DNA of 64,000 nt from a virus: the IMG/VR virus record IMGVR_UViG_3300042934_000547, positions 126,001 through 190,000 of that record; one strand, given 5' to 3'. The translations under genes and the position numbers were made by a program. Positions 1,296 through 54,643 of the stretch are shown here, piece by piece. Under the pieces are notes generated by a model. The model made no database searches. It had not been told where the DNA came from and saw only the letters and a program-made list of their open reading frames with translations. How positions within the stretch are numbered: the first letter of the stretch is position 1; each line of letters opens with the position of its first letter.

Positions 1296-1319
1296 TGGGT
1301 TAGGAATTAACCTAACCCA
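1296..1319 (-). terminator. Intrinsic terminator overlapping a stop codon
   Basis: The stem TGGGTTAGG / CCTAACCCA is followed by TTTTTC on the minus strand. The TAG stop of the gyrA-like gene is in the stem. Confidence 0.85.
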
Positions 1320-3672
1320 TTATTGTGCAATCAAGTAATATAACACCCTTAGATGGAATCAATTTTGTTCCTTTAGAAATACTACTACCAATTTTTATAG
1401 TATCTATAGGTACGCCAATCTCACACTCAGTCGTTTTATAACCAAATGTCTGACACGGATTTTTATAGGCTAATACTTTGAATATTTCATCACCATCGCC
1501 TAACTTAATAAAATTAGCACCAACATTCGCTCTCTTACCATGTTTGATTGATTCAATGTCCAGTCTATTAACGTAACCTTTTCTAGTCACAATCAATACA
1601 CCTTGAGTATCTGCATCCTTAGATATACTTACTCCTTGCATACCAGTACTATTACCCATAGAACGAACACCTTTTGAATGACGTCTTTGTAATGGTATTT
1701 CAGTAGCATTCATAGCCAATCCTTTTTCCCTATCATATATAAATATGATGTCAGAATCTTTAATGAAATCTACATCAACCAGATAGTCATCATTCTCTAG
1801 ATTAATGGCATACATTCCAGCCTTGGAAACATTCATGAAGTCTTTTACATTAACCTTCTTAATATTACCATTATAGGTAAGAAGTAATATATAATTCTTA
1901 CGAACTTTCTTAGCCAGCTCATTTATTACTGAGTCTGTTGTAACATACATAACTTCCGATGTTAAATTCTTAGATATAAATCTTAAATCAACGCCAGTAG
2001 TATTTGGGTCCATCATAGGCATTGTACTAAGTGGAATACTGAATATACTTCCATTCTTACAGAATAATATAATACTATCTCTATTATCTATAAGGGTGGT
2101 GAACTTCGGTGCATCGTTATTAGCAAATGCTCCTAATCCTAGATTTTGATCTATTTTCTTTATAAAGTTATTTTTGGTAATAACCATTTGCATCATACCA
2201 CCACTAACTGCTACAGTTGCTGGATCAGGTATTACTTTACTTCTTCTAGGTCTACCATATTTAACTTTGAATCCATTGAGTTCATTTTTGATCTCGTCAA
2301 ACAGTAGTTTCTCATTATCTAACTTCATCTTTATATTTTCAATTTGAGATGATAGTTCGATTTGATCCACCTTATACCTATCTAATCTGGTCGGAGATAG
2401 ATATTTGAGAGGTGCATTAATTATAAATAATGCCTGATGTTCAGTTATCTTAATCTCTTTAATCAAGAACTCAACTAATTCTAAATCATCCTGCTTTGTT
2501 CCTTTACGAATCTTTTGGATTATATAATCAATATAACCAGATTCCATTACAGTAATAAACCCAGCTTTCTCATGTCGATTTGTTGATAACATTTGAAGTT
2601 TATTGGTATATAATCTATGCTTAGTCATTAATCTAAAGTCAATCCATTTCAATAAATATCCTTTATAAGAGTATCTATCTAATTTCAATCCATCAAGTAA
2701 CTGCATATTAACTGTGTATGTCATCTGTAAATCCGTATGTTTATATAGGATTTCTCTATTGTATTCTGGGTCAGCACCTTTTTTAAGTTCTAACCATAGA
2801 TCTACGTCACGCTCCCCAGATTGATCCTTATAATCTACAACTTGTAGCTTTTTAGCATCTATGAGACCAACAATTCTTTCTAAGATATTATTTAACGTTC
2901 TCATATCTGGAGTTGATTTAATGACCAAAAACGTTTTTTCTTTCTTGGTATCTCTCACAATTTCAATTTTTCCTCGAACACGAAAACTTCCGTGACCAGT
3001 ATTTGATATTGATTTGAAATTTGATTCTATTATATCAGAACCTAATAATTGGTCTGGAGTCAACACTATTGGTGCTGATGGATCATCTATTAATTTAAGT
3101 GTAGCATTTATAACCTCATTTAGATTATGGGCTGGTATATATACTTGTAATCCATATCCTATACCAAAGTGCCCATTAATCAATAATACCGGAGCTGCTG
3201 ACGCAAATGCTTCCGGTTCTTGATAATCCCTATTATACGTTTCAATATAATCTAAAACATTTTTATTGACATCGACATCTCGTACAAACATGTCGATAGC
3301 AAATTCAGATAACCGCATCTCTGTATATCTTGGAGCGGCTTCTTCATCTCCCTGTGAATTACCCCAGTTACCTTGACCAGTAAATAGTGGATAATTTATA
3401 TTGAAATCAGTCATGGAGTTAACTACCGCACTTTGTAATCCTTGATCACCATGTGGGTGGGATATCTCCATCGTTTTACCTATTACTGATTGAGTCTTAA
3501 TAAACTTCTCTCGTTTCATATGATAAATTAAACTACCAAGTAATCGTCGTACAGATACTTTTAATCCGTCTCTATAGTCTGGAGTAATCCTGTCAAAGTT
3601 AACAGATGTTGTATATATCTCTGCATCACGTTCATATGAATTTAAAAGATTTTGTTCAATTATTTTGTCCAT
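1312..3672 (-). CDS. gyrA: DNA gyrase/topoisomerase IV subunit A
   Basis: This is the 786-aa DNA cleavage subunit of a type IIA topoisomerase, acting as an A2B2 complex with the product of the next gene. The breakage-reunion domain runs over roughly residues 15-480, with the catalytic pair R115-Y116 in APRYTEMRL and the helix-turn region HPHGD at 72-76. The C-terminal 280 residues look like the GyrA beta-pinwheel repeats (for example SIILFCKNGSIFSIPLS). A degenerate GyrA box, QRRHSKG, is at 662-668, favouring gyrase over topo IV. The E. coli Ser83 and Asp87 positions are Gln77 and Ser81. The AGGAGG site lies inside the end of the upstream gyrB gene, so the two genes are co-transcribed. Confidence 0.96.
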   Translation of the reverse strand: MDKIIEQNLLNSYERDAEIYTTSVNFDRITPDYRDGLKVSVRRLLGSLIYHMKREKFIKTQSVIGKTMEISHPHGDQGLQSAVVNSMTDFNINYPLFTGQGNWGNSQGDEEAAPRYTEMRLSEFAIDMFVRDVDVNKNVLDYIETYNRDYQEPEAFASAAPVLLINGHFGIGYGLQVYIPAHNLNEVINATLKLIDDPSAPIVLTPDQLLGSDIIESNFKSISNTGHGSFRVRGKIEIVRDTKKEKTFLVIKSTPDMRTLNNILERIVGLIDAKKLQVVDYKDQSGERDVDLWLELKKGADPEYNREILYKHTDLQMTYTVNMQLLDGLKLDRYSYKGYLLKWIDFRLMTKHRLYTNKLQMLSTNRHEKAGFITVMESGYIDYIIQKIRKGTKQDDLELVEFLIKEIKITEHQALFIINAPLKYLSPTRLDRYKVDQIELSSQIENIKMKLDNEKLLFDEIKNELNGFKVKYGRPRRSKVIPDPATVAVSGGMMQMVITKNNFIKKIDQNLGLGAFANNDAPKFTTLIDNRDSIILFCKNGSIFSIPLSTMPMMDPNTTGVDLRFISKNLTSEVMYVTTDSVINELAKKVRKNYILLLTYNGNIKKVNVKDFMNVSKAGMYAINLENDDYLVDVDFIKDSDIIFIYDREKGLAMNATEIPLQRRHSKGVRSMGNSTGMQGVSISKDADTQGVLIVTRKGYVNRLDIESIKHGKRANVGANFIKLGDGDEIFKVLAYKNPCQTFGYKTTECEIGVPIDTIKIGSSISKGTKLIPSKGVILLDCTIMG

Positions 3673-3684
3673 TTGTTGTTCCTC

Positions 3685-6030
3685 CTATAAATCAAATCGG
3701 CTAACTGAAACAATTCTTTTAGCTAATATAGATTTCTCACTATTCAGTTTATGAATACCATCAATATCCCTCTTAAAGTCATCTGATGTGTATTTAATGA
3801 TAGTTCTAGTATTGATATCAACAGCTGATTCAAATAATCTCTGACCATCCATCTCACCTAAGCCTTTATAACGCTGAAGTGCTGGTATGGATTTATCAAA
3901 GATTGTCATCAATTTAAATAATGTAACTGGTTGATCATTAATGATATAATTGATTTGTTTATCATTAACTTCGTTGATTAAATGGTCCATGTTTTCACAG
4001 AACTTTAAGAATCTTTCATTCATTACTATGAATTGCTGGGTTAAATCAACTTCACCTGTGATCATCACATTACCTGAATCAAGTTTTGAAACTGTGATGA
4101 ATCTATATTCATTTTCTATAGCCTTTTTAAATTTATTGTATGGAAATTTGTAATTTAATATTATACTTTCTAATAATCGTGGATTAACTGCGAAATTCTT
4201 ATTCATCTTAGTCACTTCTGAGACGTAATCTATATTACGTGATAATAAGTCGAGTAATCCAGCATTAGAAAGCTTTTTACCATGAATATCAGTAACAACA
4301 TTCTTCTTTATAAAAGAGTTGTTTACAAAATCCTGATATTCTGTTTTGTTGATAAAATATTCATATTTTCCTTTTTTCTGTTCTATTCCATATAATGGTG
4401 GCATACCAATATATATAAGTCCTGCTTCTAATAGTGGTCTCAAATATACTGCTATAAACATGATGATCAATGTTCGTATATGTGCACCATCACTATCAGC
4501 ATCGGTCATAATTATGATCTTCTTAAACCTACATTTTGCTGGATTACAATCTTTGAGAACTGTATTAGGATTATATCCAAACAATCTAATCATTCCAGAT
4601 ATTTCTGCATTGTCTAAGAATTTATGTTTTGGGGTACTTAGAGCATTAGGTATTTTACCCCTAAGTGGGAATACACCTTGATGAACTTTATCTCTAAAGC
4701 TTTTGATACCACCTTTAGCTGAATTTCCTTCAACTATAAATAACTCTAAGTCCTTATTACCAGTTGGTCTAACATACTTAGATGGTAATCCTCCAGATAA
4801 ACTATTTGTTTCATATTTATCTGCAATCCTCAATGTTTCTGTAGCTAATTTAGCTCTCATATCAGATATATCTTTTAAATATCTACAAATTTTGTTTATT
4901 TCTTTTGGATTTTTTGTTACCCATTCTCCAAAACTACTTTGTACTAAATCAGAAACAAATTTCTTCATGTCAGAGTTAGATAATTCATCTTTTGCCTGAC
5001 CAACAAAGTTTGGTTCTAAGTGAGCTACAGATACAACAGCCCTCAATGTATATAATATATCTTCTCTCTCTATCTTACGTTTAGCGTTAGCTGGTAAGAA
5101 TACTGTATTCATATATTTTTTCAGAAACTTCACTATACCATCTTTAAATCCTTCTATATGCGTACCCTTTGATGTAGGTGTCATATTACTATATGACCGT
5201 TCAATAAAATCTGGAGTTCCTCCAGCATCATAACTAAATACAACGTAAGCTTGCATGAATCCTGTATCAGCAAAGAATTCTATTGGTACAGTAAGTGAAT
5301 TAGCTGTTATTTCTTCAAATTTAGCAGCAACACCTTTCCTATTATCATACACTTCTGATGTCGTACTACCATCTTTGTTATAACAAGTTATATATATCTT
5401 ATTTACATCACTCCTTGGAGTAAGTATAAATAAACTTCCTGTAAGATATCTAATATCCTGACTAGTCAATGTTAGTTGTCCAAGTATTGAGAGTAATGGT
5501 TTAAATTTAACAATTGAACCTTGCATCTTTTGAGGATTCTTGATATCTTCAATTTTTTGAAGTCTTCCATCGATTAATGTCATCCTCTTTGCTTCACCGA
5601 GTCTATAAGATTCAACTATAAAATATTCTGATAAGGCATTAACTACTTTTGCTCCTACTCCATTTAATCCAGATGAATATTCAAATGGTTTCTTTTCATA
5701 GTTTGAGCCTGTATGTTGTGCAGTAAGCATTGACTCCATTTTATCGAATGGAAATCCTCTTCCGTTATCCTCTATAATAACCTCAAATGTTGCTTCATTA
5801 TAGATAACCCTTATTGTATCACACGGTGATGCTTGTTTAACCATTTCGTCTATGGCGTTTTGAAGTATCTCCCTGAACATCTGAAGCATACCTCTATCTT
5901 CTAATGGTCCTAAATACATGCCCGGACGTTTTCTAACCGCTTCAACAAAGTCCTTTAAAGTCTTAATTTCATTACTATAATTCTTAATGTTTTCTATCAT
6001 CTCTTTCGAGAGTTGATGCTTTTCTGCCAT
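3685..6030 (-). CDS. gyrB: DNA gyrase/topoisomerase IV subunit B
   Basis: This is the 781-aa ATPase subunit of the type IIA topoisomerase. GHKL ATPase motifs are visible: Glu/Asn in REILQNAIDE (53-62), DNGRGFP (88-94) and GLNGVGAK (121-128). The TOPRIM domain has VEGNSAKGG and TDADSDGAH, followed by PPLYGIEQ and the late QRYKGLGEMD motif. The start is placed at 6030 because AAGGAG lies 8 bases before that ATG; the longer reading frame would need a TTG that overlaps the ribosome site. The gene is followed 12 bp later by gyrA, so the pair is one operon making a complete phage topoisomerase, comparable in role to the T4 enzyme but with bacterial-like subunit lengths. Confidence 0.96.
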   Translation of the reverse strand: MAEKHQLSKEMIENIKNYSNEIKTLKDFVEAVRKRPGMYLGPLEDRGMLQMFREILQNAIDEMVKQASPCDTIRVIYNEATFEVIIEDNGRGFPFDKMESMLTAQHTGSNYEKKPFEYSSGLNGVGAKVVNALSEYFIVESYRLGEAKRMTLIDGRLQKIEDIKNPQKMQGSIVKFKPLLSILGQLTLTSQDIRYLTGSLFILTPRSDVNKIYITCYNKDGSTTSEVYDNRKGVAAKFEEITANSLTVPIEFFADTGFMQAYVVFSYDAGGTPDFIERSYSNMTPTSKGTHIEGFKDGIVKFLKKYMNTVFLPANAKRKIEREDILYTLRAVVSVAHLEPNFVGQAKDELSNSDMKKFVSDLVQSSFGEWVTKNPKEINKICRYLKDISDMRAKLATETLRIADKYETNSLSGGLPSKYVRPTGNKDLELFIVEGNSAKGGIKSFRDKVHQGVFPLRGKIPNALSTPKHKFLDNAEISGMIRLFGYNPNTVLKDCNPAKCRFKKIIIMTDADSDGAHIRTLIIMFIAVYLRPLLEAGLIYIGMPPLYGIEQKKGKYEYFINKTEYQDFVNNSFIKKNVVTDIHGKKLSNAGLLDLLSRNIDYVSEVTKMNKNFAVNPRLLESIILNYKFPYNKFKKAIENEYRFITVSKLDSGNVMITGEVDLTQQFIVMNERFLKFCENMDHLINEVNDKQINYIINDQPVTLFKLMTIFDKSIPALQRYKGLGEMDGQRLFESAVDINTRTIIKYTSDDFKRDIDGIHKLNSEKSILAKRIVSVSRFDL

Positions 6031-6077
6031 TTGTGATGCTCCTTCCAATAAAAAATCAATTAAGTGTTCACAATAAA

Positions 6078-6112
6078 AACTAGATGTAAGTCGTTAAACT
6101 TACACCCAGTTT
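6078..6112 (-). terminator. Intrinsic terminator
   Basis: An imperfect 13-bp stem (AACTGGGTGTAAG / CTTACATCTAGTT) followed by TTTTTATTG on the minus strand ends the gene at 6121-6990. Confidence 0.7.
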
Positions 6113-6120
6113 AATTTGTA

Positions 6121-6990
6121 TTAGTCTTCAAATGCTTTTTTATTTGCTGCAACGCCATTATTAGCAGGTGCTGCCTGTTGGTTTCTCATATTGAATCCGT
6201 TATTCGCTGTTTGAAAATTGTTTTGCATTGGATCAGCAGCGAATGGTGTATCATAACCGCCCATACCCATATTCATCATATTTGGATTTTGGTTAGCTCC
6301 GAATTGAACTCCACCTTGTGGCATTCCTTGTGGCATTCCGAATTGAACTCCACCTTGTGGCATTCCCCAATTCTGGTTCATAGCTGGGTTTTGATTAGCA
6401 CCGTAATTCATATTCATTGCCGGATTAGCTCCCATGCCGAAATTGTAGTTTCCGCCTAGTATGCCCTGTAACATAGCAAAGTTGTTGTTATTTGAATGTA
6501 TATTTGTATTCATTGAACTAAATTTACTGAAGCTGTTTATTGCAACTTCATATACTTTAGGTAACTTCTTGATGTATGGTATCATCTGAGCATACACACT
6601 CAAGAAGTCTCCTGCTAAATCAACTCCGAAGAATTTGATATTTTGAAGCAGGAACACAGCTTTATTCACGATATTTTGTACATCTTCTAAGCTGAGATTT
6701 TCCCAAATTGGAAACTGTTCTTTACACCAATTACAGAAGTAAACTGGGAATCCATTCTCATCTACTTTGCCTGTAGCTTCAACAATAAAATTTTGTGCAT
6801 TTTTGTGTGTACATAAAGCAGCAGCCGCTTCCACGTCAGTTACTTCGAATACACCTCTTGATGTTCCTTTTAATAATTCTGCATTCTTTCCTTCCATGGC
6901 AGGATTTTCCATAGTTGGTTTTTGAAACACTGGTGGTGTTGTAACTCCACTATTAAACATAAATCCTGCATTATTGCCAAAATAACTCAT
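6121..6990 (-). CDS. Zinc-finger-like protein with Gly/Asn/Met/Gln-rich tail
   Basis: This 289-aa protein has a possible metal site made of C60-x-H62 and C86-x-x-C89 (CTH and CNWC). It is followed by a helical region (about 95-165) and a long low-complexity tail rich in N, M, G, Q and A. The tail contains two copies of a GMPQGGVQFG-type unit encoded by a perfect 27-bp direct repeat. The N-terminus carries ENPAMEGKN, echoed in the protein at 22353-23624. Expression is from its own phage promoter. The tail resembles those of nucleic-acid-binding or phase-separating proteins, but no specific function can be assigned. Confidence 0.85.
   Translation of the reverse strand: MSYFGNNAGFMFNSGVTTPPVFQKPTMENPAMEGKNAELLKGTSRGVFEVTDVEAAAALCTHKNAQNFIVEATGKVDENGFPVYFCNWCKEQFPIWENLSLEDVQNIVNKAVFLLQNIKFFGVDLAGDFLSVYAQMIPYIKKLPKVYEVAINSFSKFSSMNTNIHSNNNNFAMLQGILGGNYNFGMGANPAMNMNYGANQNPAMNQNWGMPQGGVQFGMPQGMPQGGVQFGANQNPNMMNMGMGGYDTPFAADPMQNNFQTANNGFNMRNQQAAPANNGVAANKKAFED
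6301..6366. repeat. 27-bp direct repeat inside a coding sequence
   Basis: Two perfect 27-bp copies lie at 6301-6327 and 6340-6366, separated by a 12-bp partial third copy (TTGTGGCATTCC). They encode the GMPQGG/VQFG units of the low-complexity tail and are a likely site of length variation by slippage. Confidence 0.9.
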
Positions 6991-7029
6991 TTTGTTATTT
7001 CCTCCTAAAATTTTATTTGGTTTTTATTT

Positions 7030-7052
7030 CACATTTATAATATATATTTATA
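7030..7052 (-). promoter_or_regulatory. Phage promoter motif (copy 3)
   Basis: The minus-strand core AAATATATATTATAAA is at 7036-7046. It lies about 45 bp upstream of the start at 6990. Confidence 0.7.
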
Positions 7053-7059
7053 AAGTGTT

Positions 7060-7392
7060 TTAATACAATGCCAATATAGCTGTTTTATCATCTTGTTCGT
7101 TCACTGGTATTTTATTAATAAAGCTATTCAAATGGTCTTTATTAGAAAAATACTTTTGAACGTATTGAACCACTTCGAAATGAAAAATTTCACATACGAC
7201 TGGAAATATCGTTATATCTGAGCCTTTATTACTCAATTTATAATGATATATCAATTCATTAGTCCAATCAATGATTAGCTTTGAACCTTCAAAGTTACCA
7301 TATGCAACTCTTTCGTTATCCATATATAGTGCAAATGGGGCTGTTTCTCCCTCAATCTGAGTGTATATATTCTGGAATGTAACTTTATCCAT
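7060..7392 (-). CDS. Hypothetical protein (110 aa)
   Basis: This is a 110-aa soluble protein with alternating strands in its first half (FALYMDNERVAYGNF) and a helical second half. No recognisable motif is present. An AGGAGG site precedes the ATG, and a weaker copy of the phage promoter lies about 45 bp upstream. The end of the gene abuts the promoter of the following gene. Confidence 0.8.
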   Translation of the reverse strand: MDKVTFQNIYTQIEGETAPFALYMDNERVAYGNFEGSKLIIDWTNELIYHYKLSNKGSDITIFPVVCEIFHFEVVQYVQKYFSNKDHLNSFINKIPVNEQDDKTAILALY

Positions 7393-26607: not shown

Positions 26608-28107
26608 CTATGCATTTACTTTATTATAGAATTCAATTAATGAACGTTTGTATTCTGGATCATATTTATCTCTACCCAAATTGATAAAGTTGTTTAAGTT
26701 AACTAATGTATTCTTTGTTGGTAGGTAGTTAACGTATAACAATCCATCATTTCTGTTTATAATCATAGCTCTTCTTGGATTATAAACTAATAATGCTGTT
26801 TGATAGAACTTGTCGTTGATTATCAACTTAACGTTTAATACGTCACCGTCAAAGTCTGCTTGTAGTGATGGCAATATATCAAGTGGAACACCCATTGTGA
26901 AATTATAGCATATTCCAATAACATGCATTTGAATCATACTACCATATTCCAATGTAGGATTTCTGTTTATCATTACTGGAATTCCAAATGGGTATGAGTT
27001 GATAATACTATTAATGATACTTATCAATTCATAATTCTCTTTAAGTCTTCCAACACTCCATATCATGTAAGCATCATTAATACTGATACTTCTTCTATGT
27101 GCAATTATATTTATAATTTTCTGTTGCAACAAATCACACAATGTATAATATGATAGAGTTATTTGGTCAACCTTAAGTGAAGCATCTGGTTTGATAACAT
27201 TTCTTGCTGTAAAGTTATATTTACCACCATATGCTCTCCTTATCAATCCAGTTTTACCTGACAAAATTTCTTCAATATCTGCATATACGTTCATGAACTC
27301 ATCTTGAAGTTTTTGAAGATATTCAGGTATTGATGTTTTATATAGAGTTAATTTATTCCTGTTTATTCTAGCTGTATACATAGCCATATTATTAAAATTA
27401 CCATTGATATCATAATATTCTAATTGTATACCAGAGGTTTTTAATAATCTTAATAATGTAGTATAAACAGGTATACAGCTTGTAAATATTAAGTCTCTAT
27501 TCTTTATGATTTCTTCATATGCATCCTGTTTACTTTGGGTATTAGCCATTTTCTTATAAAATGTAATTATTTCATCGAATCGATTGATGAATTCATATAT
27601 CCCGATTCTAAAGAATGGTTCTTTATCTGGATCTGGAGTCTCTACCGGAATCTCAATTCCATCTGAGTTAAAGTTTTCATCTAGATTCATCATATTATTA
27701 AATGCTTTTTGACCAATAAAACTTTGTATAGTCTTATACATTATTGGATGAATTACTTTATATCCATGCTGTATTACCAACCATCCCGTATAAGCAAAAT
27801 TATCGTCAACAAATTTAACTTTAGTTTTACATTTCGGGCACAGTATTCCTTCATTACTACGTGAACGTAAATTACCACATTCACATTTGTGTCGATCGCC
27901 ATTTGGACTAATATCATCAACACCTCTACCATATCGACTAGAGAATATTCCATCTGGGTCTTTTAATGCTTTTTTGATACCTTGGGCACCAGTAATTATA
28001 AATCCGTTGTCTGTTTCTAAGTCTCGTTTACATTCTTCTTCAAAATTGATTTTTACCAATCTAGATTGGTATTCAATTTCGTTACTATGTCCGTAATCAT
28101 TATACAT
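26608..28107 (-). CDS. RNA polymerase beta' subunit, N-terminal part
   Basis: This 499-aa protein carries the first part of a multisubunit RNA polymerase beta' subunit. A zinc ribbon has Cys75, Cys77, Cys90 and Cys93 (CECG and CPKC). The metal-binding active-site loop ADFDGD is at 417-422, preceded by PVMINRNPTLEYGSM as in the bacterial enzyme. The protein stops about 77 residues after the catalytic loop; the continuation is in the gene at 28829-30025. Split beta' subunits are known from phiKZ-like and AR9/PBS1-like jumbo phages. It would transcribe phage genes from phage-specific promoters. A GGGAG site precedes the ATG. Confidence 0.93.
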   Translation of the reverse strand: MYNDYGHSNEIEYQSRLVKINFEEECKRDLETDNGFIITGAQGIKKALKDPDGIFSSRYGRGVDDISPNGDRHKCECGNLRSRSNEGILCPKCKTKVKFVDDNFAYTGWLVIQHGYKVIHPIMYKTIQSFIGQKAFNNMMNLDENFNSDGIEIPVETPDPDKEPFFRIGIYEFINRFDEIITFYKKMANTQSKQDAYEEIIKNRDLIFTSCIPVYTTLLRLLKTSGIQLEYYDINGNFNNMAMYTARINRNKLTLYKTSIPEYLQKLQDEFMNVYADIEEILSGKTGLIRRAYGGKYNFTARNVIKPDASLKVDQITLSYYTLCDLLQQKIINIIAHRRSISINDAYMIWSVGRLKENYELISIINSIINSYPFGIPVMINRNPTLEYGSMIQMHVIGICYNFTMGVPLDILPSLQADFDGDVLNVKLIINDKFYQTALLVYNPRRAMIINRNDGLLYVNYLPTKNTLVNLNNFINLGRDKYDPEYKRSLIEFYNKVNA

Positions 28108-28187
28108 CTTGTCTCTTCTCCCTATATTTATATTTTTAAGTCTCTTTACCTTAACATATAGTTTTTACTCTTTTAATTTTCTATTAT

Positions 28188-28198
28188 TATAATATATA
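28188..28198 (-). promoter_or_regulatory. Phage promoter motif (copy 7)
   Basis: The minus-strand core AAATATATATTATAAT lies about 80 bp upstream of the beta' N-terminal gene, so the polymerase may be expressed from a promoter of the same class. Confidence 0.6.
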
Positions 28199-28239
28199 TT
28201 TGTAAAACAAATTATTAATGGTAAAGGAGGGAGTTATTA

Positions 28240-28794
28240 ATGATATTCAAAAAATACAAAATAACATGTCCATTTGGACCACGTTCAATAAAGGTGAATG
28301 GTAAAGTTGATAATAGAAACCATAATGGTATTGATTTTGTAGCTATTGGAGATACAACCGTTTATTCCCCAATATCTGGTAAAGTGATAACCAGTCAATA
28401 CATTACAGATAAGAATAATAGTCTATGGCAATATGGAAATTATGTATGCATTCAAAGTGCCGATAATCATGTTCACTATTTCGCACATCTAGCATCGAGA
28501 TATGTTAGGGTTGGCGATTTTGTTCAGCAAGGTCAAAGTATAGGAGTTATGGGTAATACTGGATATAGTACTGGTGCCCATACACATTACGGTATAAAAA
28601 GTCCAGTTTCAAATAAATTTATCAATCCAATTGATTATTACAATACAGTTCGACAAGCTCAATCGATGGGTTCTGCATCACAAGGTAATTCAGGTGGATT
28701 AGATGTATTTGGATATAATAAACTAGAAAAAGGTATCCAAGATATAATGGCTATTTCAATAGAGCAAGCACTTAATCAAAGACTTAAAAAATAA
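28240..28794 (+). CDS. M23-family peptidase, probable endolysin
   Basis: This is a 184-aa zinc metallopeptidase of the M23 (lysostaphin) family, expected to cut peptidoglycan cross-links. The zinc ligands are visible: His28 and Asp32 in NHNGID, His83 in YFAHL, and His114/His116 in GAHTHYGI. There is no signal peptide, so export needs a holin or tail delivery. The C-terminal 45 residues are a Ser/Gly linker and helix. AAAGGAGGG precedes the ATG, and the gene lies alone on the plus strand between two beta' gene pieces. Confidence 0.92.
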   Translation: MIFKKYKITCPFGPRSIKVNGKVDNRNHNGIDFVAIGDTTVYSPISGKVITSQYITDKNNSLWQYGNYVCIQSADNHVHYFAHLASRYVRVGDFVQQGQSIGVMGNTGYSTGAHTHYGIKSPVSNKFINPIDYYNTVRQAQSMGSASQGNSGGLDVFGYNKLEKGIQDIMAISIEQALNQRLKK

Positions 28795-28795
28795 A

Positions 28796-28819
28796 GGAGT
28801 AGACTTATAAGTCTACTCC
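28796..28819. terminator. Bidirectional terminator
   Basis: The stem GGAGTAGACT / AGTCTACTCC, with T-rich flanks on both sides, separates convergent genes. Confidence 0.85.
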
Positions 28820-28828
28820 CATTTTTAT

Positions 28829-30025
28829 TTACCAAATTTTAGTCACATCAACGTCAAATATTCTTATTGTAGAGTCATGGAATTTTTTCATATTTTTCTG
28901 CATTATCGTATTAGGGTATCCAACTGTTGTCATACCTATTTTAGTAATTCCTATACGTTTAAATAATGTAGAAGAACATGTTTGACATATACCATCCTTA
29001 CATTCACACATAGAACTATAACGCATTTTGACTTTCTTCCCAATATATTTATTCATATTGTCGGTTGTTAATTCTACTAGTTTAGTTCCTTCGATTATAT
29101 ATCCATAAATCCAACCTCTAATATTTCCATCAGTCAGTGCTACATCAATATACCTGTCCGTGTGACAATCATTAGTTTCAGATTGCACAACATGTTGTAG
29201 AGCCCTTATGAATAACTTAACCCAGTATCCACCAATAGCAGTATTGTTTGATTTCGCATATACCCCTGCTACAAGTGAGTTACCAAATAAGACATATTCA
29301 TCTTTAGAGATTCCATCCATATATGAGCTAACCCCAACATCGAAACCTTTAACTGGATCTATATTTTTAATAGCACCCTTCATTATGTAAATATTCTTGA
29401 AATGGTTATCAATAGAACCTTTTGCACCAGATTTAAATTGTTCCAGTCCCTCATCATTTGGACCTAGGATATTTATAGCTTCATTAGTTAACTCTTTTTC
29501 AATCTTGTCTGATACCTTAAAGTCGCCTTTTTCTAAAGCTTCTTTATTCTCCTTGATAAGTTTCTTCTTCTTGGTTCTAATTTTATCAGAAACTCTAAAG
29601 AAGTTCTCAGAATAATGAGAAGATAGAACAAAAATAAATGATAAGAAAAATTGATATTTATCTTCATATCTAACGAGTTGTTCAGCTGTGATTTTATCCT
29701 CATTTAGTGCAAATGATAGTTTTTCATCAAGTTTCTCATATAATTTCTGAGTTAATGGTTCATTGATATATCCCAAAACATTACTCACATCTTCGATAAA
29801 GTATTTATTAAATACCCATATCCCGAGTGTGGTCTTACATGGTTTGGTATTCTTTTTAACTTTCCCATACTTTCCAGCAGGTATAATGATAGTGTCCTGT
29901 GGATCATATTTGCGAACTTCATTTAAGAATCCAAAGTTTTTAATAATGAATGTTCTAGTTACATCTTTTTCTTCAATATTTAAGAAGTAATTTAGAGTAG
30001 TTTTATCAGTTATCATTTTCGCCAT
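28829..30025 (-). CDS. RNA polymerase beta' subunit, middle/C-terminal part
   Basis: This 398-aa protein aligns by eye to bacterial beta' from TTVGR (here TTLGI, 65-69) through SGARG (SGAKG, 199-203) and the bridge-helix/trigger-loop region (SYMDGISKDEYVLFGNS, 234-250) to the second zinc site. Cys287, Cys340/342, Cys347 and Cys350 match the second zinc site. It ends with KKFHDSTI, the counterpart of the MRTFH motif, so the canonical beta' C-terminal domain is absent here. The start at 30025 follows AAGGAG by 8 bases. It is the last gene of a unit with two virion-type genes. Confidence 0.9.
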   Translation of the reverse strand: MAKMITDKTTLNYFLNIEEKDVTRTFIIKNFGFLNEVRKYDPQDTIIIPAGKYGKVKKNTKPCKTTLGIWVFNKYFIEDVSNVLGYINEPLTQKLYEKLDEKLSFALNEDKITAEQLVRYEDKYQFFLSFIFVLSSHYSENFFRVSDKIRTKKKKLIKENKEALEKGDFKVSDKIEKELTNEAINILGPNDEGLEQFKSGAKGSIDNHFKNIYIMKGAIKNIDPVKGFDVGVSSYMDGISKDEYVLFGNSLVAGVYAKSNNTAIGGYWVKLFIRALQHVVQSETNDCHTDRYIDVALTDGNIRGWIYGYIIEGTKLVELTTDNMNKYIGKKVKMRYSSMCECKDGICQTCSSTLFKRIGITKIGMTTVGYPNTIMQKNMKKFHDSTIRIFDVDVTKIW

Positions 30026-30041
30026 AACTATCACTCCTTAA

Positions 30042-30866
30042 TTAGAAGAATAACTGATAAATTATATCCAGTGCTTTACCATCTTCTATAAGGAATTCAG
30101 TCATGAAGTGAACTAATGTAACTGGTCTAATTCTAGTATATTTAGCACCAGTTGGAGTCGTCTCTTTTAATGCACTACATAAATGCATAGAACTAACCAT
30201 ACAATCCAAAGGTCTACCAATTAAATTGAAATGTTCCTTGAAATCGTCAACAGTAACTGACATTATCAATTCGCTATATGTATCAATCGGTTTAGTGGTT
30301 GGCTCGTATAACGTAGTAAGAACTGTATTGTCAGATATTCTTCTAAATTGTGGAATATCATCAAATTCTTTAAAATAATACTTATCCAATCCGTCAATAG
30401 TTTTCTTTCCTGTGTATTTAGAATCAATACTTGTTCCAGTAGGAACACATCTAAACGGTAACAAATCAGCTGGTGCGATTCTTGAATTATACTCAGTTTT
30501 CTTACGAGCATTCGCAGCATTATCGCATCCAGTATTTGCCATACAGAATAAATATACTTTTTCAGCTGCTGTTATTTCTGTACTAGGAATAGTACCCTTA
30601 TCATTTAAATTTAGGTCTAAATCGTAGTAAACTAAACTAGCTGCTGGTGGTACATAACCTAACCATTTTTCTGCATTGAACATACTTCCATTAATATTTA
30701 CAATATTGGTTGTTTCGTGTTCATCAACAATCTTACCATTCTTTTTACTTTTAAATAATACCTTGTTTTGACGATACCTAACTTCATCACCAGAACCAAC
30801 ACCGTTGATTTGATAATCGTCATTTAGTTTTAATATATCTCTTTGTAATAAAATCTTTTTAGACAT
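30042..30866 (-). CDS. Hypothetical, probable virion protein (274 aa)
   Basis: This 274-aa mixed alpha/beta protein has a GAGGTGAGG site and an 8-bp overlap with the large gene upstream, and it is followed 17 bp before the end by the beta' gene. No motif is recognised. Co-transcription with a baseplate-like protein and an RNA polymerase part suggests a late/virion set. Confidence 0.8.
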   Translation of the reverse strand: MSKKILLQRDILKLNDDYQINGVGSGDEVRYRQNKVLFKSKKNGKIVDEHETTNIVNINGSMFNAEKWLGYVPPAASLVYYDLDLNLNDKGTIPSTEITAAEKVYLFCMANTGCDNAANARKKTEYNSRIAPADLLPFRCVPTGTSIDSKYTGKKTIDGLDKYYFKEFDDIPQFRRISDNTVLTTLYEPTTKPIDTYSELIMSVTVDDFKEHFNLIGRPLDCMVSSMHLCSALKETTPTGAKYTRIRPVTLVHFMTEFLIEDGKALDIIYQLFF

Positions 30867-33162
30867 TTATCCTCACCTCATCTATATAAAAATTATCTCT
30901 TGGTCTTACATTATCCTTAAATATTAACTTTGAAACAACGATTGGGTTTTCTTCATACATACTAGTTTTGTCGTGGTCTTTAAACGTAAGGCTTCCATGA
31001 ATACCAGCAATCTTATCATATATTTTAACTTGATTTTCCGTTTTATCTTTAAATATATACATATTAGAGATATTGGAAATATCAATCATATACGATTTGA
31101 AGAATGAAAGTATCTCGTATATATATCTAGAAATAGGATATATAGTTATAACTGGGATTGAATGCGATACGTATTTGAAATGACCTTCTTTTAGTAGCTC
31201 CTCGATAGCAAAAATGATATTTACGGATGCTTCATTTAGAATAGATTTAACCTCCTCAATATCTTTATCAATCACTTGATTAACAACTTCATACAATAGT
31301 GGGTCATTATATTGAATGAATTCACTATACGTATTTGCTATTCTACCTAGTTCATCAATATAAAAAACCTCTTTGTTTACTTTTGTATACATCAATGCAT
31401 CATGTATTTGTTTATATAGTTGATAGGTTCTGTGATCACTTGTGTTTTCCATGACACTAACCAAATGATTATAAACCTTTTCATTACTTAAATACACATC
31501 CATGACTTCGTTAAATGATAAAAATCTATCTTTAGGAATAATAAAATTATCTAGCATGAAATCAGCATTAGTAAACCCATTATCCCTTATTATTTGACTT
31601 AACTCGGTTAAATCTGCTTCAAAGTTAAATCCTTTGATTTGTAATATATCTGCCGTATCTGTAAAAATAGTATCAACAATTCCATATTTAGCGTATATTG
31701 TATAAAATAGGAATGATACTAAATCTATAATACGAAATTCGTGACCAGCACCTATTTCTGGAACTCTACAAGTTAAAGTTTCCACTAAATGCCCACTATT
31801 GACAATAGTATTGAATAAATAACAAAATTCAAATTCCAACACATTCATATCATATAATGTATTGATACTGATGTATTTAGATAGGTCAATGTTAAATTCC
31901 TGCTCTAATATTTTTTGTTTTATTACAGCTGGGTCTTCTCCACCTGTCCAATAGTAGTCTGAGCTGGTTACAGATTCATAACTTTCTAAAGACTTTTTAT
32001 CGAAGATATATTCATTGATATCTTTACCTACCTGAACTTTAAGAAATTCAAGTGAATAGTTTTTATCATAATCTTCTTTAGTTTCTCCGGTTTCTGGATC
32101 TTGAATATATTCTAAGACGAAATTACCACTTTCATCAAGTTTCCTATTACGAATTAGATAATATTGGAAAACCTTGATATTCTCAAATCCAAATAAGTTA
32201 CATACATCTATTACGTTTGTATTAGATGATTTATACTTGATAAATCTATTTAGATTCTGCATCATTAATCTACGATATTTACTTGGTATTGTATTAAAAG
32301 ACGGTAACCCGTTAGAGGCAAATATTTCATTCATTGTCTCTCTATCAAAGAAATCTTGTCTAATAAACATTTCCGGTAAATCGAGTATGACTTCATTCAT
32401 TGTCTGTATTTTGATAAACATTTCGATGAATTCATCATAATAAACAGAACTCAACTTTAATGCTTCAGAATAAACAGCCTTTAATGTATAGTGAATTTGC
32501 TGTTTTAATTTTTCTAAGTATAAGTTCCTAATATTCTCCATCTCAATGGTAGGAACAAATAGGATGTCAAGCTTTTTAGCCTTTCTAGCAGTATAATATG
32601 ATATTGATTTCGAACCTAAATAATTTAAATACTTTTCATCTGGATTCAATGCTATAAGATTTTTGATAACTCCTATTTTTTCTAATGTATCATATTGAGC
32701 TACATTTAATTGATGAAAAAATAAATTGTTATCAACTAAATCTCCACTGTAATAATCTCCGACTAATATTCCATCTTCACCAATGGGAGGAATACCATGG
32801 AGCATTCTATAATATGGATTTAAATCTTGGTAATTCTTTATCATATATAGACGCATTTCTTCAACTAAGATATTTCGTTTGAGTGGTGGAATTTTATTCT
32901 TATCAGCTATACATTCGTCAATTAATGGACCATCATCAAGTATTTTTAGTAATACCTCTCTAGGATACACATCCCATGTATTAAAATTTACTTTAAATTC
33001 ATTCCATGTGATAAATTTATCGCCCTCACGGATACTATCAACCGTTTCGTTGTTTATTGCCTTATCTTTATTTTTAAGAACAGTTCCAAATACCAGAATT
33101 TTTAGATTATGGACAATATTATCCATGACACTATTACTGGTATAAATCTTATTAATATCCAT
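30859..33162 (-). CDS. Large virion/baseplate-like protein (767 aa)
   Basis: This 767-aa protein has the segment NPYYRMLHGIPPIGE (about 117-131), and later FIKYKSSNTNVIDVCNLFGF (about 317-336), both of which I associate with large structural, probably baseplate, proteins of Firmicutes phages. The rest is mixed helical, without membrane segments. No RNA polymerase beta motif was found, so it is not a missing polymerase subunit. An AAAGGAGAGG site is present. It heads the operon that ends with the beta' C-terminal gene. Confidence 0.8.
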   Translation of the reverse strand: MDINKIYTSNSVMDNIVHNLKILVFGTVLKNKDKAINNETVDSIREGDKFITWNEFKVNFNTWDVYPREVLLKILDDGPLIDECIADKNKIPPLKRNILVEEMRLYMIKNYQDLNPYYRMLHGIPPIGEDGILVGDYYSGDLVDNNLFFHQLNVAQYDTLEKIGVIKNLIALNPDEKYLNYLGSKSISYYTARKAKKLDILFVPTIEMENIRNLYLEKLKQQIHYTLKAVYSEALKLSSVYYDEFIEMFIKIQTMNEVILDLPEMFIRQDFFDRETMNEIFASNGLPSFNTIPSKYRRLMMQNLNRFIKYKSSNTNVIDVCNLFGFENIKVFQYYLIRNRKLDESGNFVLEYIQDPETGETKEDYDKNYSLEFLKVQVGKDINEYIFDKKSLESYESVTSSDYYWTGGEDPAVIKQKILEQEFNIDLSKYISINTLYDMNVLEFEFCYLFNTIVNSGHLVETLTCRVPEIGAGHEFRIIDLVSFLFYTIYAKYGIVDTIFTDTADILQIKGFNFEADLTELSQIIRDNGFTNADFMLDNFIIPKDRFLSFNEVMDVYLSNEKVYNHLVSVMENTSDHRTYQLYKQIHDALMYTKVNKEVFYIDELGRIANTYSEFIQYNDPLLYEVVNQVIDKDIEEVKSILNEASVNIIFAIEELLKEGHFKYVSHSIPVITIYPISRYIYEILSFFKSYMIDISNISNMYIFKDKTENQVKIYDKIAGIHGSLTFKDHDKTSMYEENPIVVSKLIFKDNVRPRDNFYIDEVRINV

Positions 33163-33242
33163 ATTCCTCTCCTTTCATTGTATTTTTGCTTATATATATG
33201 TTTTCTTAAACATTTCTATAATACCATAGGGAGGGTTTGAAT

Positions 33243-33899
33243 ATGGAAGAATTAAATCAAATAATGAAACAAGAACCTATTAATGATAATCCGTTTTTGT
33301 ATTCACCAGAAGATGATATATCGATATTTTTTGCACAAACAAGAGAGACACTATACAATAGTGAATTATACAATAACTTCGTAAATAATGCTGTAAAAGT
33401 ATTCAGAAGTTCAAAAACTTACAAGAATTATAAGAGTTATTTAATGGAAATGGGATTGAATAGATGTCAGCATTTTAGTAATATAATTGCTGATGAAATG
33501 GCTGAGGTAGAATTACATCACAATATGCTTACATTACACGATATAGCTCTTATCATTTGTGAGCATGTTCTTAATACTATAGGTCAAATAACAACTTTCC
33601 AGTTACGTCAATTAATTAAAGAGGAACATAAGCAAAATCATGTGCAGATAGTAATGCTATCAAAAACGCCACATCAGATGTATACTAATACTGACCAAAT
33701 GTTTTACCATCCAGATAATACATTCGGAGATTGGGAATCATTCGTATTCAGATATAGATATGGAATTACATTTGATATAGCTAATAAACTTATTGCTTAT
33801 ATTGGATTAATACAGTCAGAAAAGAATTCATATGATAATAATGCTTTAAAATTAAGAGATGAGATATTGTCATTTGCTTATCAAAACGCAGAAATATAA
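33243..33899 (+). CDS. His-His/TPH-motif protein A (218 aa)
   Basis: This 218-aa protein is a diverged paralogue of the gene at 43381-44154. Shared features in order are NRC (73-75), LHHNMLTLHDI (91-101, with His92-His93), TPHQMYTN (142-149) and GDWESFVFRY. The double His on a strand followed by a second His-bearing motif is reminiscent of HNH or other zinc-dependent nuclease sites, but the function is unproven. The ATG at 33243 follows GGAGGG; the TTG two codons upstream is too close to it. It is a single plus-strand gene. Confidence 0.8.
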   Translation: MEELNQIMKQEPINDNPFLYSPEDDISIFFAQTRETLYNSELYNNFVNNAVKVFRSSKTYKNYKSYLMEMGLNRCQHFSNIIADEMAEVELHHNMLTLHDIALIICEHVLNTIGQITTFQLRQLIKEEHKQNHVQIVMLSKTPHQMYTNTDQMFYHPDNTFGDWESFVFRYRYGITFDIANKLIAYIGLIQSEKNSYDNNALKLRDEILSFAYQNAEI

Positions 33900-43380: not shown

Positions 43381-44154
43381 TTATTTGTTGTCATCCTCCT
43401 TTTTTATTCTTATTATAGGACATGTGTTCATTAATTGCCCATACATTGAGTTTTGCGTAATTAATTTTCGTTCCTCTAATGTTTCTAGTAGATTATCGTA
43501 TGAAGAAACTTTATTCAACTCATGTTCCACATATAAATAATCCGTATCAAGGATATTATTATGCGGTGCTGAATGTGCCAAATACATAGCATCATAAGAT
43601 TTTTTCATGATGTATCTTTCCATAGCACTATCAGGAACATAAGCTCCATAAATTCTTAAAAATTCTTCATAGTTTCCCCTAACACTTGACATCGGGATCT
43701 GATAAAACTGATTATGAACTAATTCATGAGGAGTTTCTGATAATGGTATCAACCCTACCAATCCAATATAATGTAAATACGTAACTTCCATAGCAATCAT
43801 TTCAACTTCACAATTTTGACCTGAAGCTAAACGTTTATTATAGACTGTTTCAGATATATCATATAATGTAAATGGCTCATGATGAACGTGTATTTTAATT
43901 TTCCTGTTTTCCAGACAAGAAACATTTTGAAATATTGCACATCTATGGAACCCTTTATATTTCTTAAGAAATTCTATTATTTGTCTATATTCAAATGAAT
44001 TTCTACATACATATTCTATATCTTTAATAAATTTATCATATTGATTTGGTTCAGTTAAATCATAATCTATTTTGTCAAACTCCGGTATATTCTCGAGTTT
44101 TAAGGTACTAACTGCATGATTGGTATCAATACTTTTCTTTGCTACATATTTCAT
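43381..44154 (-). CDS. His-His/TPH-motif protein B (257 aa)
   Basis: This is a paralogue of the 33243-33899 product. The shared order is HRC (70-72), HVHHEPFTLYDI (89-100, His91-His92), LSETPHELVHN (138-148) and GNYEEFLRIYG (160-170). The clustered His residues suggest a metal site; nuclease-like activity is a hypothesis only. AAAGGTATGA precedes the ATG. It is coupled with a tiny membrane-type gene upstream and a hypothetical gene downstream. Confidence 0.8.
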   Translation of the reverse strand: MKYVAKKSIDTNHAVSTLKLENIPEFDKIDYDLTEPNQYDKFIKDIEYVCRNSFEYRQIIEFLKKYKGFHRCAIFQNVSCLENRKIKIHVHHEPFTLYDISETVYNKRLASGQNCEVEMIAMEVTYLHYIGLVGLIPLSETPHELVHNQFYQIPMSSVRGNYEEFLRIYGAYVPDSAMERYIMKKSYDAMYLAHSAPHNNILDTDYLYVEHELNKVSSYDNLLETLEERKLITQNSMYGQLMNTCPIIRIKKEDDNK

Positions 44155-50155: not shown

Positions 50156-51175
50156 CTATAAATCCGTATATATTTCTTCTAATAGATTTCCATCCATATC
50201 ATAAATTTTTCTATGCTTTTGATACTTATCAAATCTTACAGCTTCCTTATTCCATTTAGAATAAATAAACTCTTTAAAATGACATTCTATATCATTATAA
50301 ATGAAATCTCTTTCCATCATCAACTTAGAGAAGTTTCCATCATGGAAATATATACTTCCACCATCAGGCATGATGATATTTTTGTATTCATAGTCGTCGA
50401 TTTTTTCTGTTACCATTACTACATCATGTGGTAACGATTCTATAGTAACGGTGTGCCCCTGATTAGCAGCTACTATTGTGTAAGAACTAGGACGTCTTTG
50501 AAGTACCTCAAAATTATCAGTTGGTTTTAATAATATCTTATCCCTAATTTTACTATAATTGATCTTACCATAAACTGATGAAACTAAATCTCTGAATGAA
50601 GAGTAATTACCATCTGTTAAAATAGATGTACCGTTCTCAGTGATATTAGCTAATAAGCCACTCTTGCTATAGAAATATTTAAACTCTTTCTTAGCTGGTA
50701 TTATGACTATCATTCGTTCCACATCGTGACGATATGATGTGTATGAATATATCATATGAGATACAGTACGTTGGTCGTTTAAACCTAAAACGCTTTTAAC
50801 TAACAACAATTTGGTATCCATATTATTATAAATGCTTATTGTTGCCTTACCAGTAACTTCATCATATATTATAACAGTATTACCATATTGCACTCCCTTT
50901 ATTTCACGTTTAGTAACTTCGCCAGTAACAAGATTTGTCGTCCTATGTATTTGGTGTGGTAAATCTTCACGCAGACTCATGTATTCAACATTTAATTCAG
51001 TTGATGCTACAAAGTCAGTCTTTGTCTTTATTCCACCATAGTTATTATAAATCTCTTCCTTTAGAAGTTTACCCTGAGACTCTTCGGTCCCCTGTTCATA
51101 AAGATATGTATGTCGTAACTTTGATTGTCCATCTACTAATGCATATACTTTCCTTAATTCATTTTTTCCTTCCAT
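50156..51175 (-). CDS. YD-repeat-like protein 5 (339 aa)
   Basis: This is the longest and most diverged member of the family. The N-terminus (ELRKVYALVDGQSKLRHTYLYEQG) and later stretches (YSKSGLLANITENG and IYDMDGNLLEEIYTD) keep the YD-like unit. The start is at 51175, 6 bases after AAGGAGG; the longer frame reads into the promoter. Its own promoter is present. Function is unknown. Confidence 0.82.
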   Translation of the reverse strand: MEGKNELRKVYALVDGQSKLRHTYLYEQGTEESQGKLLKEEIYNNYGGIKTKTDFVASTELNVEYMSLREDLPHQIHRTTNLVTGEVTKREIKGVQYGNTVIIYDEVTGKATISIYNNMDTKLLLVKSVLGLNDQRTVSHMIYSYTSYRHDVERMIVIIPAKKEFKYFYSKSGLLANITENGTSILTDGNYSSFRDLVSSVYGKINYSKIRDKILLKPTDNFEVLQRRPSSYTIVAANQGHTVTIESLPHDVVMVTEKIDDYEYKNIIMPDGGSIYFHDGNFSKLMMERDFIYNDIECHFKEFIYSKWNKEAVRFDKYQKHRKIYDMDGNLLEEIYTDL

Positions 51176-51213
51176 TTGTATCCTCCTTATATAACCTTTT
51201 AACTTATCGTTTA

Positions 51214-51224
51214 TATAATATATA
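51214..51224 (-). promoter_or_regulatory. Phage promoter motif (copy 14)
   Basis: The minus-strand core GGGTATATATTATATAAACG lies about 40 bp upstream of YD protein 5. Confidence 0.7.
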
Positions 51225-51253
51225 CCCATATCAAATTTTGAAAATAAAAGGGA

Positions 51254-53465: not shown

Positions 53466-53500
53466 AAAATATATTATAAATATATATTATAACAATGAAT
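53466..53500 (+). promoter_or_regulatory. Phage promoter motif (copy 15)
   Basis: The plus-strand core AAATATATATTATAACAATG is at 53481-53491, 45 bp before the start at 53536. A second AATATATTATA lies just upstream. Confidence 0.7.
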
Positions 53501-54313: not shown

Positions 54314-54643
54314 ATGGCTTTCGAAGACAAACTCGAATATGACATAGAACAAGAATTAGGTGTATTTGATGAAAAAGGAAATACATCACTTGAATTAAGA
54401 GTTGTAAGCTGGAATAAGAAGCCTGCTAAACTTGAATTAAGAAAATGGGTAACCAACAGCGATGGTCAAAATCCAAATAAAGGATTCTCATTCTTAACTG
54501 ATGAAGGTCCGCATCGTCTTGCTGAACTTTTAGTTGAAAATAATTTTGGAGATACAAAAACTCTAAAAGCTCTTTTAATTGATAGGGATGATTACGATGA
54601 ATCTGAATCAGATTATGACTATTTGGATGAAGAAGAAGAATAA
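54314..54643 (+). CDS. PC4/YdbC-like ssDNA-binding protein with acidic tail
   Basis: Residues 25-80 follow the PC4/YdbC fold pattern: LRVVSWNKKPAKLELRKW, a basic loop, then KGFSFLTDEGPHRLAELL (strand and final helix). PC4-like proteins bind single-stranded DNA as dimers. The last 18 residues are nearly all Asp, Glu, Tyr and Ser (DDYDESESDYDYLDEEEE), like the partner-binding acidic tail of phage and bacterial SSBs. It is 109 aa, the expected size. This phage may use it as its replication SSB. Confidence 0.72.
   Translation: MAFEDKLEYDIEQELGVFDEKGNTSLELRVVSWNKKPAKLELRKWVTNSDGQNPNKGFSFLTDEGPHRLAELLVENNFGDTKTLKALLIDRDDYDESESDYDYLDEEEE

Follow-up and report, generated by a model that had tools for sequence, protein, structure and literature searches.

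Giant phages related to AR9 carry two multisubunit RNA polymerases (RNAPs), one associated with the virion (vRNAP) and one nonvirion enzyme (nvRNAP). A review of their subunit layout describes a virion beta' distributed over three polypeptides and a virion beta over two, while the nonvirion enzyme has two of each (PMC7598289). The C-terminal part of the virion beta', missing until then, was identified as gp244 in SPN3US (PMC5105663), and gp125 is its AR9 counterpart (PMC5312081). The early promoter of AR9, AAATATATATTAT-6N-G, has been assigned to the vRNAP, and the late promoter, AACA-6N-TA/G, to the nvRNAP (PMC5312081). In the AR9 expression data, the vRNAP subunits all belong to the late class, whereas those of the nvRNAP are classed as continuous or early.

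The locus described here lies in a jumbo-phage record of 231,975 bp. The window, meaning the whole 64,000-nucleotide stretch that was analysed, covers bases 126001-190000 of this record. The two ends of the record overlap by 127 bp, indicating a closed, essentially complete genome. An initial annotation of the window had described a single beta' subunit split in two and separated by an endolysin gene on the opposite strand. Our phylogenetic trees and subunit inventory instead assign the two genes to two different polymerases. We consider it about 95% probable that they encode subunits of the two multisubunit RNAPs of an AR9-like jumbo phage, the left gene belonging to the nvRNAP and the right gene to the vRNAP.

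Two beta' genes of different polymerases

The ORF listing confirmed the positions given in the initial annotation for both RNAP reading frames and for the M23 peptidase gene on the other strand. The features of the locus, in window coordinates, are as follows.

26608-28107, minus strand: predicted nvRNAP N-beta' gene, 499 aa (PDB, PHROG, tree and motifs)
28189-28201, minus strand: early promoter core AAATATATATTAT, exact match, 94 nt before the N-beta' ATG
28206-28217, plus strand: late promoter motif of the AR9 type, AACA-N6-TA, preceding the M23 gene; modest enrichment
28240-28794, plus strand: M23 peptidase gene, 184 aa (PF01551, phrog_7767), outside the polymerase and a unit of its own
28795-28820, no strand: two-way terminator-like hairpin where the convergent M23 and middle-beta' units meet
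28829-30034 (or 30025), minus strand: predicted vRNAP middle-beta' gene, 401 aa (GTG start) or 398 aa (ATG start)
30042-30866, minus strand: second gene of the middle-beta' operon, 274 aa, no family match
30859-33162, minus strand: head gene of this operon, virion structural protein family, AR9 g260 homologue
33191-33202, minus strand: late promoter motif of the AR9 type, AACATATATATA, 40 nt before the operon

Neither Rfam families nor tRNA genes were found in the window.

On the basis of its sequence, the left gene is the orthologue of AR9 gp270, the N-terminal beta' part of the nonvirion enzyme. Its product matched the beta' chain (chain E) of the AR9 nvRNAP in the PDB with an E value of 1.2e-36, and matched phrog_2987 at 5.5e-57; the family that holds the AR9 virion N-beta', phrog_2986, was reached only weakly (5.8e-9). 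BLAST scores were 123-159 bits to the nonvirion subunits of Bacillus phages, as compared to about 20-33 bits to the virion ones. The active-site ADFDGD motif noted initially is kept (D at residue 418), and no introns were found in the gene, two traits that set it apart from AR9 gp270. The N-terminus contains a zinc ribbon of the CxC...CxxC type, formed by C75, C77, C90 and C93. The Fusobacterium phage has a similar ribbon, as does phiR1-37, though with altered spacing, and it is absent from the orthologues of AR9, BpSp, LPJP1 and MarsHill; the AR9 gp270 exon, unlike the gene described here, lacks it. Since the ribbon was not seen in the compared Bacillus, Listeria and Staphylococcus phages, it bears on how these polymerases lost features of the cellular enzyme.

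The right gene, likewise by its sequence, is the orthologue of AR9 gp264, the middle beta' part of the virion enzyme. Its best phage matches are AR9 g264, annotated as virion RNAP, and the relatives of g264, and it scored 196 bits against g264 versus 40 bits against the nonvirion AR9 g154. It matched phrog_2962 with an E value of 8.6e-59, and none of the AR9 nvRNAP chains in the PDB matched it. The second zinc site reported initially is present (CECKDGICQTC), and where an SGARG and an MRTFH-like motif had been proposed, we observed SGAKG and, near the end, KKFHD. The reading frame opens with a GTG at 30034, but the ATG at 30025 has an AAGGAG about 8 nt upstream and is therefore probably the true start. 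The end of the protein aligns within some 20 residues with the ends of the virion orthologues of AR9, BpSp, MarsHill and phiR1-37, and AR9 gp264, also 401 aa long, ends alike. Thus, the KxFHD terminus is the usual end of this subunit, and the gene is not truncated.

In two maximum-likelihood trees, each built from 14 rows (AR9, BpSp, LPJP1, MarsHill/Madawaska, phiR1-37, a Fusobacterium phage and the genome's own counterparts), the left gene fell in the nonvirion clade and the right gene in the virion clade, each with a support of 100/100. Both groupings were recovered in all bootstrap trees and agree with the BLAST scores, with some branches long, among them that of the left gene. Protein identities to the relatives are only about 25-35%, and the viral_contigs scans revealed no close relatives of either gene.

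The virion and nonvirion subunit sets

The initial annotation had stated that the C-terminal part of beta' is missing from the window. This is correct for the window, but the part is not lost from the genome, which carries a separate virion C-beta' gene. A separate gene for C-beta' is normal in the virion enzyme, and it was found elsewhere in the record, so that the "missing" C-terminus is another gene. The search of the remaining genome for this part and for the beta pieces, as initially suggested, was successful for both enzymes: all eight other RNAP subunits are present in the same record, at the following record coordinates.

80456-82267, minus strand: nonvirion C-beta' (genome family search)
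105936-107192, minus strand: nonvirion N-beta (genome search)
113811-115772, minus strand: nonvirion C-beta (genome search)
match at 74-1258 (record start), plus strand: gp226-like specificity subunit, nonvirion (alignment of five gp226 homologues)
5640-7166, minus strand: virion N-beta' (genome family search)
214522-217896, plus strand: virion N-beta (genome search)
121984-122634, minus strand: virion C-beta (genome search)
91061-91774, plus strand: virion C-beta' (phrog_2926, E 3.4e-22; SPN3US gp244/AR9 gp125 family)

A genome search with PF04998 gave no match; this model failed because the phage sequences are too divergent, and the searches relied on PHROG families and on AR9 proteins instead. 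Similarly, phrog_25005, the gp226 family, matched nothing in the genome, and the gp226-like gene was then found with the alignment of five homologues. Its reading frame runs back over the circular junction of the record. The ORF that follows, as we read it, is a primase-like gene, just as AR9 g226 is followed by the primase gene g225.

The genome thus holds homologues of all five subunits of the AR9/PBS1 nvRNAP (gp270, gp154, gp105, gp089 and gp226), at about 25-30% identity, and of all five subunits of the AR9/PBS1 vRNAP (gp145, gp264, gp125, gp189 and gp078). The beta' subunits are also the same as those of phiR1-37, at identities of about 28-29%, and the virion C-beta', assigned by profile (phrog_2926), is a divergent separate gene of the same family as SPN3US gp244. 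Read in this way, the ten-gene RNAP set is complete and divergent.

Some details of subunit architecture differ among these phages. At 238 aa, the virion C-beta described here is short, and the HD domain that the Bacillus phages fuse to the N-terminus of theirs, as in AR9 gp078, is missing. No introns were seen in the virion subunit ORFs. In the Fusobacterium phage JD-Fnp4, the virion N-beta' and middle beta' form one ORF of 930 aa, indicating that this split is not universal in the group. In the Listeria phage LPJP1, the annotation of the virion middle beta' breaks off before a KxFHD end is reached; a long stretch without annotation follows, and the gene may be interrupted by an intron.

Promoter motifs and the proposed transcription program

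The full early promoter pattern occurs 15 times in the genome, whereas the reversed control gave 0 matches. Seven exact copies of the core were found in the window versus 0.27 in shuffles, on the minus strand at 1255, 7037, 8931, 11135, 28189 and 34964 and on the plus strand at 53478. A variant, AAGTATATATTAT-6N-G, also recurs. The initial annotation had proposed that the left gene has a promoter of its own, and an exact AR9-type early core indeed lies upstream of it, with an A rather than a G at the expected +1 position. The early motif is also found upstream of the other nonvirion genes, at 84 nt from C-beta' (one mismatch), 46 nt from C-beta and about 67 nt from the gp226-like gene; for N-beta, a copy with one mismatch immediately precedes the head gene of the apparent operon containing this gene. 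All five nonvirion genes therefore lie behind an early motif, either directly or via an operon. By comparison, AR9 has the early motif within 200 nt of g270, g154 and g226. None of the virion subunit genes has an early motif directly upstream; the virion C-beta gene has an early-type motif with one mismatch at a distance of about 1.35 kb, two genes upstream.

The late motif precedes the middle-beta' operon, which has no early motif before it, as well as the virion N-beta' and N-beta genes. The virion C-beta gene has a one-mismatch version only, and the C-beta' gene a distant one only. Several virion genes thus carry late-type motifs, as in AR9, where the motif is found within 200 nt of all five. 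This short motif is modestly enriched, with 12 upstream regions versus 5.2 expected, a value reached in 1 of 500 simulations. Matches to sigma-70-type promoters were no commoner than in shuffles and were ignored for this reason.

The middle-beta' gene was correctly described as the end of an operon of virion-type genes: the head gene belongs to phrog_20751, a virion structural protein family (E 2.2e-44), and scored 135 bits against the AR9 virion protein g260. The middle-beta' gene is the last gene of this minus-strand operon and is followed by a terminator-like hairpin. Eight such hairpins were found in the region, as compared to 2.3 in shuffles. The one described here separates the M23 gene from the middle-beta' operon, so that the left gene is probably its own transcription unit. 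The M23 gene itself (PF01551, E 2.9e-23; phrog_7767, E 2e-29) has a late motif 34 nt upstream; it is unrelated to the polymerase and transcribed separately. The early motif before the left gene and the late-type motif heading the middle-beta' operon agree with the initial suggestion that the two genes differ in timing.

By analogy with AR9, phiR1-37 and SPN3US, packaging, injection, assembly and timing may be outlined as follows. The vRNAP, with the middle beta' as one of its subunits and completed by the separate N-beta', C-beta', N-beta and C-beta gene products, would probably be packaged, injected with the DNA and transcribe the early genes. The packaging that had been raised as a possibility is therefore probable for the middle-beta' product, whose phiR1-37 orthologue, g231, is annotated as structural. 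The nvRNAP subunits, including the product of the left gene, would be made from vRNAP-type early promoters, the enzyme being completed by the separate C-beta', N-beta, C-beta and gp226-like promoter-specificity subunits. The nvRNAP would then transcribe the late genes, including the operon of virion proteins whose last gene is the middle-beta' gene, and the vRNAP subunits from late transcription could supply the next virions.

The early promoter, with its 13-bp core, 6N and G, is identical to that of AR9 even though the subunits have diverged to the identities given above. This combination of a conserved promoter and diverged subunits makes the phage useful for studying promoter recognition by the virion polymerase. 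In the 132-bp gap between the left gene and the M23 gene, the leftward early core and the rightward late-type motif are only four bases apart. Initiation by the nvRNAP at the late motif could conceivably shut the early promoter of the nvRNAP subunit gene, a switch that would constitute negative feedback between the two polymerases, though we regard it as very improbable.

Alternative readings and comparison with related phages

In a subunit exchange, the product of either gene would function in the vRNAP as well as the nvRNAP during some part of the infection and form a hybrid polymerase. The idea is invited by the adjoining genes and by the position of the N/middle split, which follows the active-site domain in virion as in nonvirion beta' (PMC7598289). 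However, each enzyme has a full set of its own in this genome, and in phiR1-37 the annotation as structural protein is limited to the virion-type beta' subunits, g178 and g231, and does not extend to the nonvirion g274 and g102. We therefore find such an exchange even less plausible than the promoter switch.

The original reading, a single beta' divided by an inserted endolysin gene with its pieces working in one enzyme, has in its favor that the genes are neighbors and cover successive parts of beta'. It scarcely deserves credence given that they fall in opposite clades, have partners of their own elsewhere (the nonvirion C-beta' and the virion N-beta', respectively) and differ in promoter class. 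In addition, the AR9 orthologues g264 and g270 are about 4 kb apart with other genes between them, and g260, g261, g264 and g270 all lie within about 11 kb. This clustering suggests that the nearness of the two RNAP genes is more likely ancestral than caused by an endolysin insertion. In phiR1-37, which has a Gram-negative host, the two orthologues are about 34 kb apart; its nonvirion N-beta', g274, has N-terminal cysteines like those described here and an annotated promoter upstream.

The remaining idea holds that the genome has a complete third RNAP set and that the two genes are redundant or decayed duplicates. It was named initially as what would refute the split-subunit claim, and is next to negligible despite the low identities and the long branch of the left gene. 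Both reading frames run uninterrupted along the whole length of their relatives and retain the catalytic and zinc motifs. Genome searches with phrog_2986 and AR9 gp154 gave a single clear gene for each subunit and did not reveal a third beta' set, and another intact gene for the nonvirion N-beta' or the virion middle beta' was not seen in the genome.

The assignment to two polymerases is thus preferred, and the arrangement is ordinary for this phage group, as the two-polymerase scheme is already known from related giant phages. This removes the apparent oddity of one broken beta' and adds a divergent ten-gene set to a known group.

Several other genes in the window have AR9 counterparts. Beyond the operon head lies a plus-strand gene (33237-33899) whose AR9 homologues are the paralogues g261 and g242; together with its own paralogue on the minus strand (43381-44154), it belongs to phrog_12252 and matches this AR9 pair. 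The minus-strand ORF at 50156-51229 (357 aa) has a weak similarity (E 0.008), which may be due to chance, to the AR9 uracil-DNA-glycosylase inhibitor ORF; AR9 nvRNAP promoters need uracil. The plus-strand ORF at 54314-54643 matched AR9 g093 with an E value of 9e-5; this AR9 protein is annotated as a DNA-binding member of the PC4 family. Finally, two genes for type II topoisomerase subunits adjoin each other on the minus strand at 1312-6048, whereas the AR9 gyrase B and A genes are about 16 kb apart.
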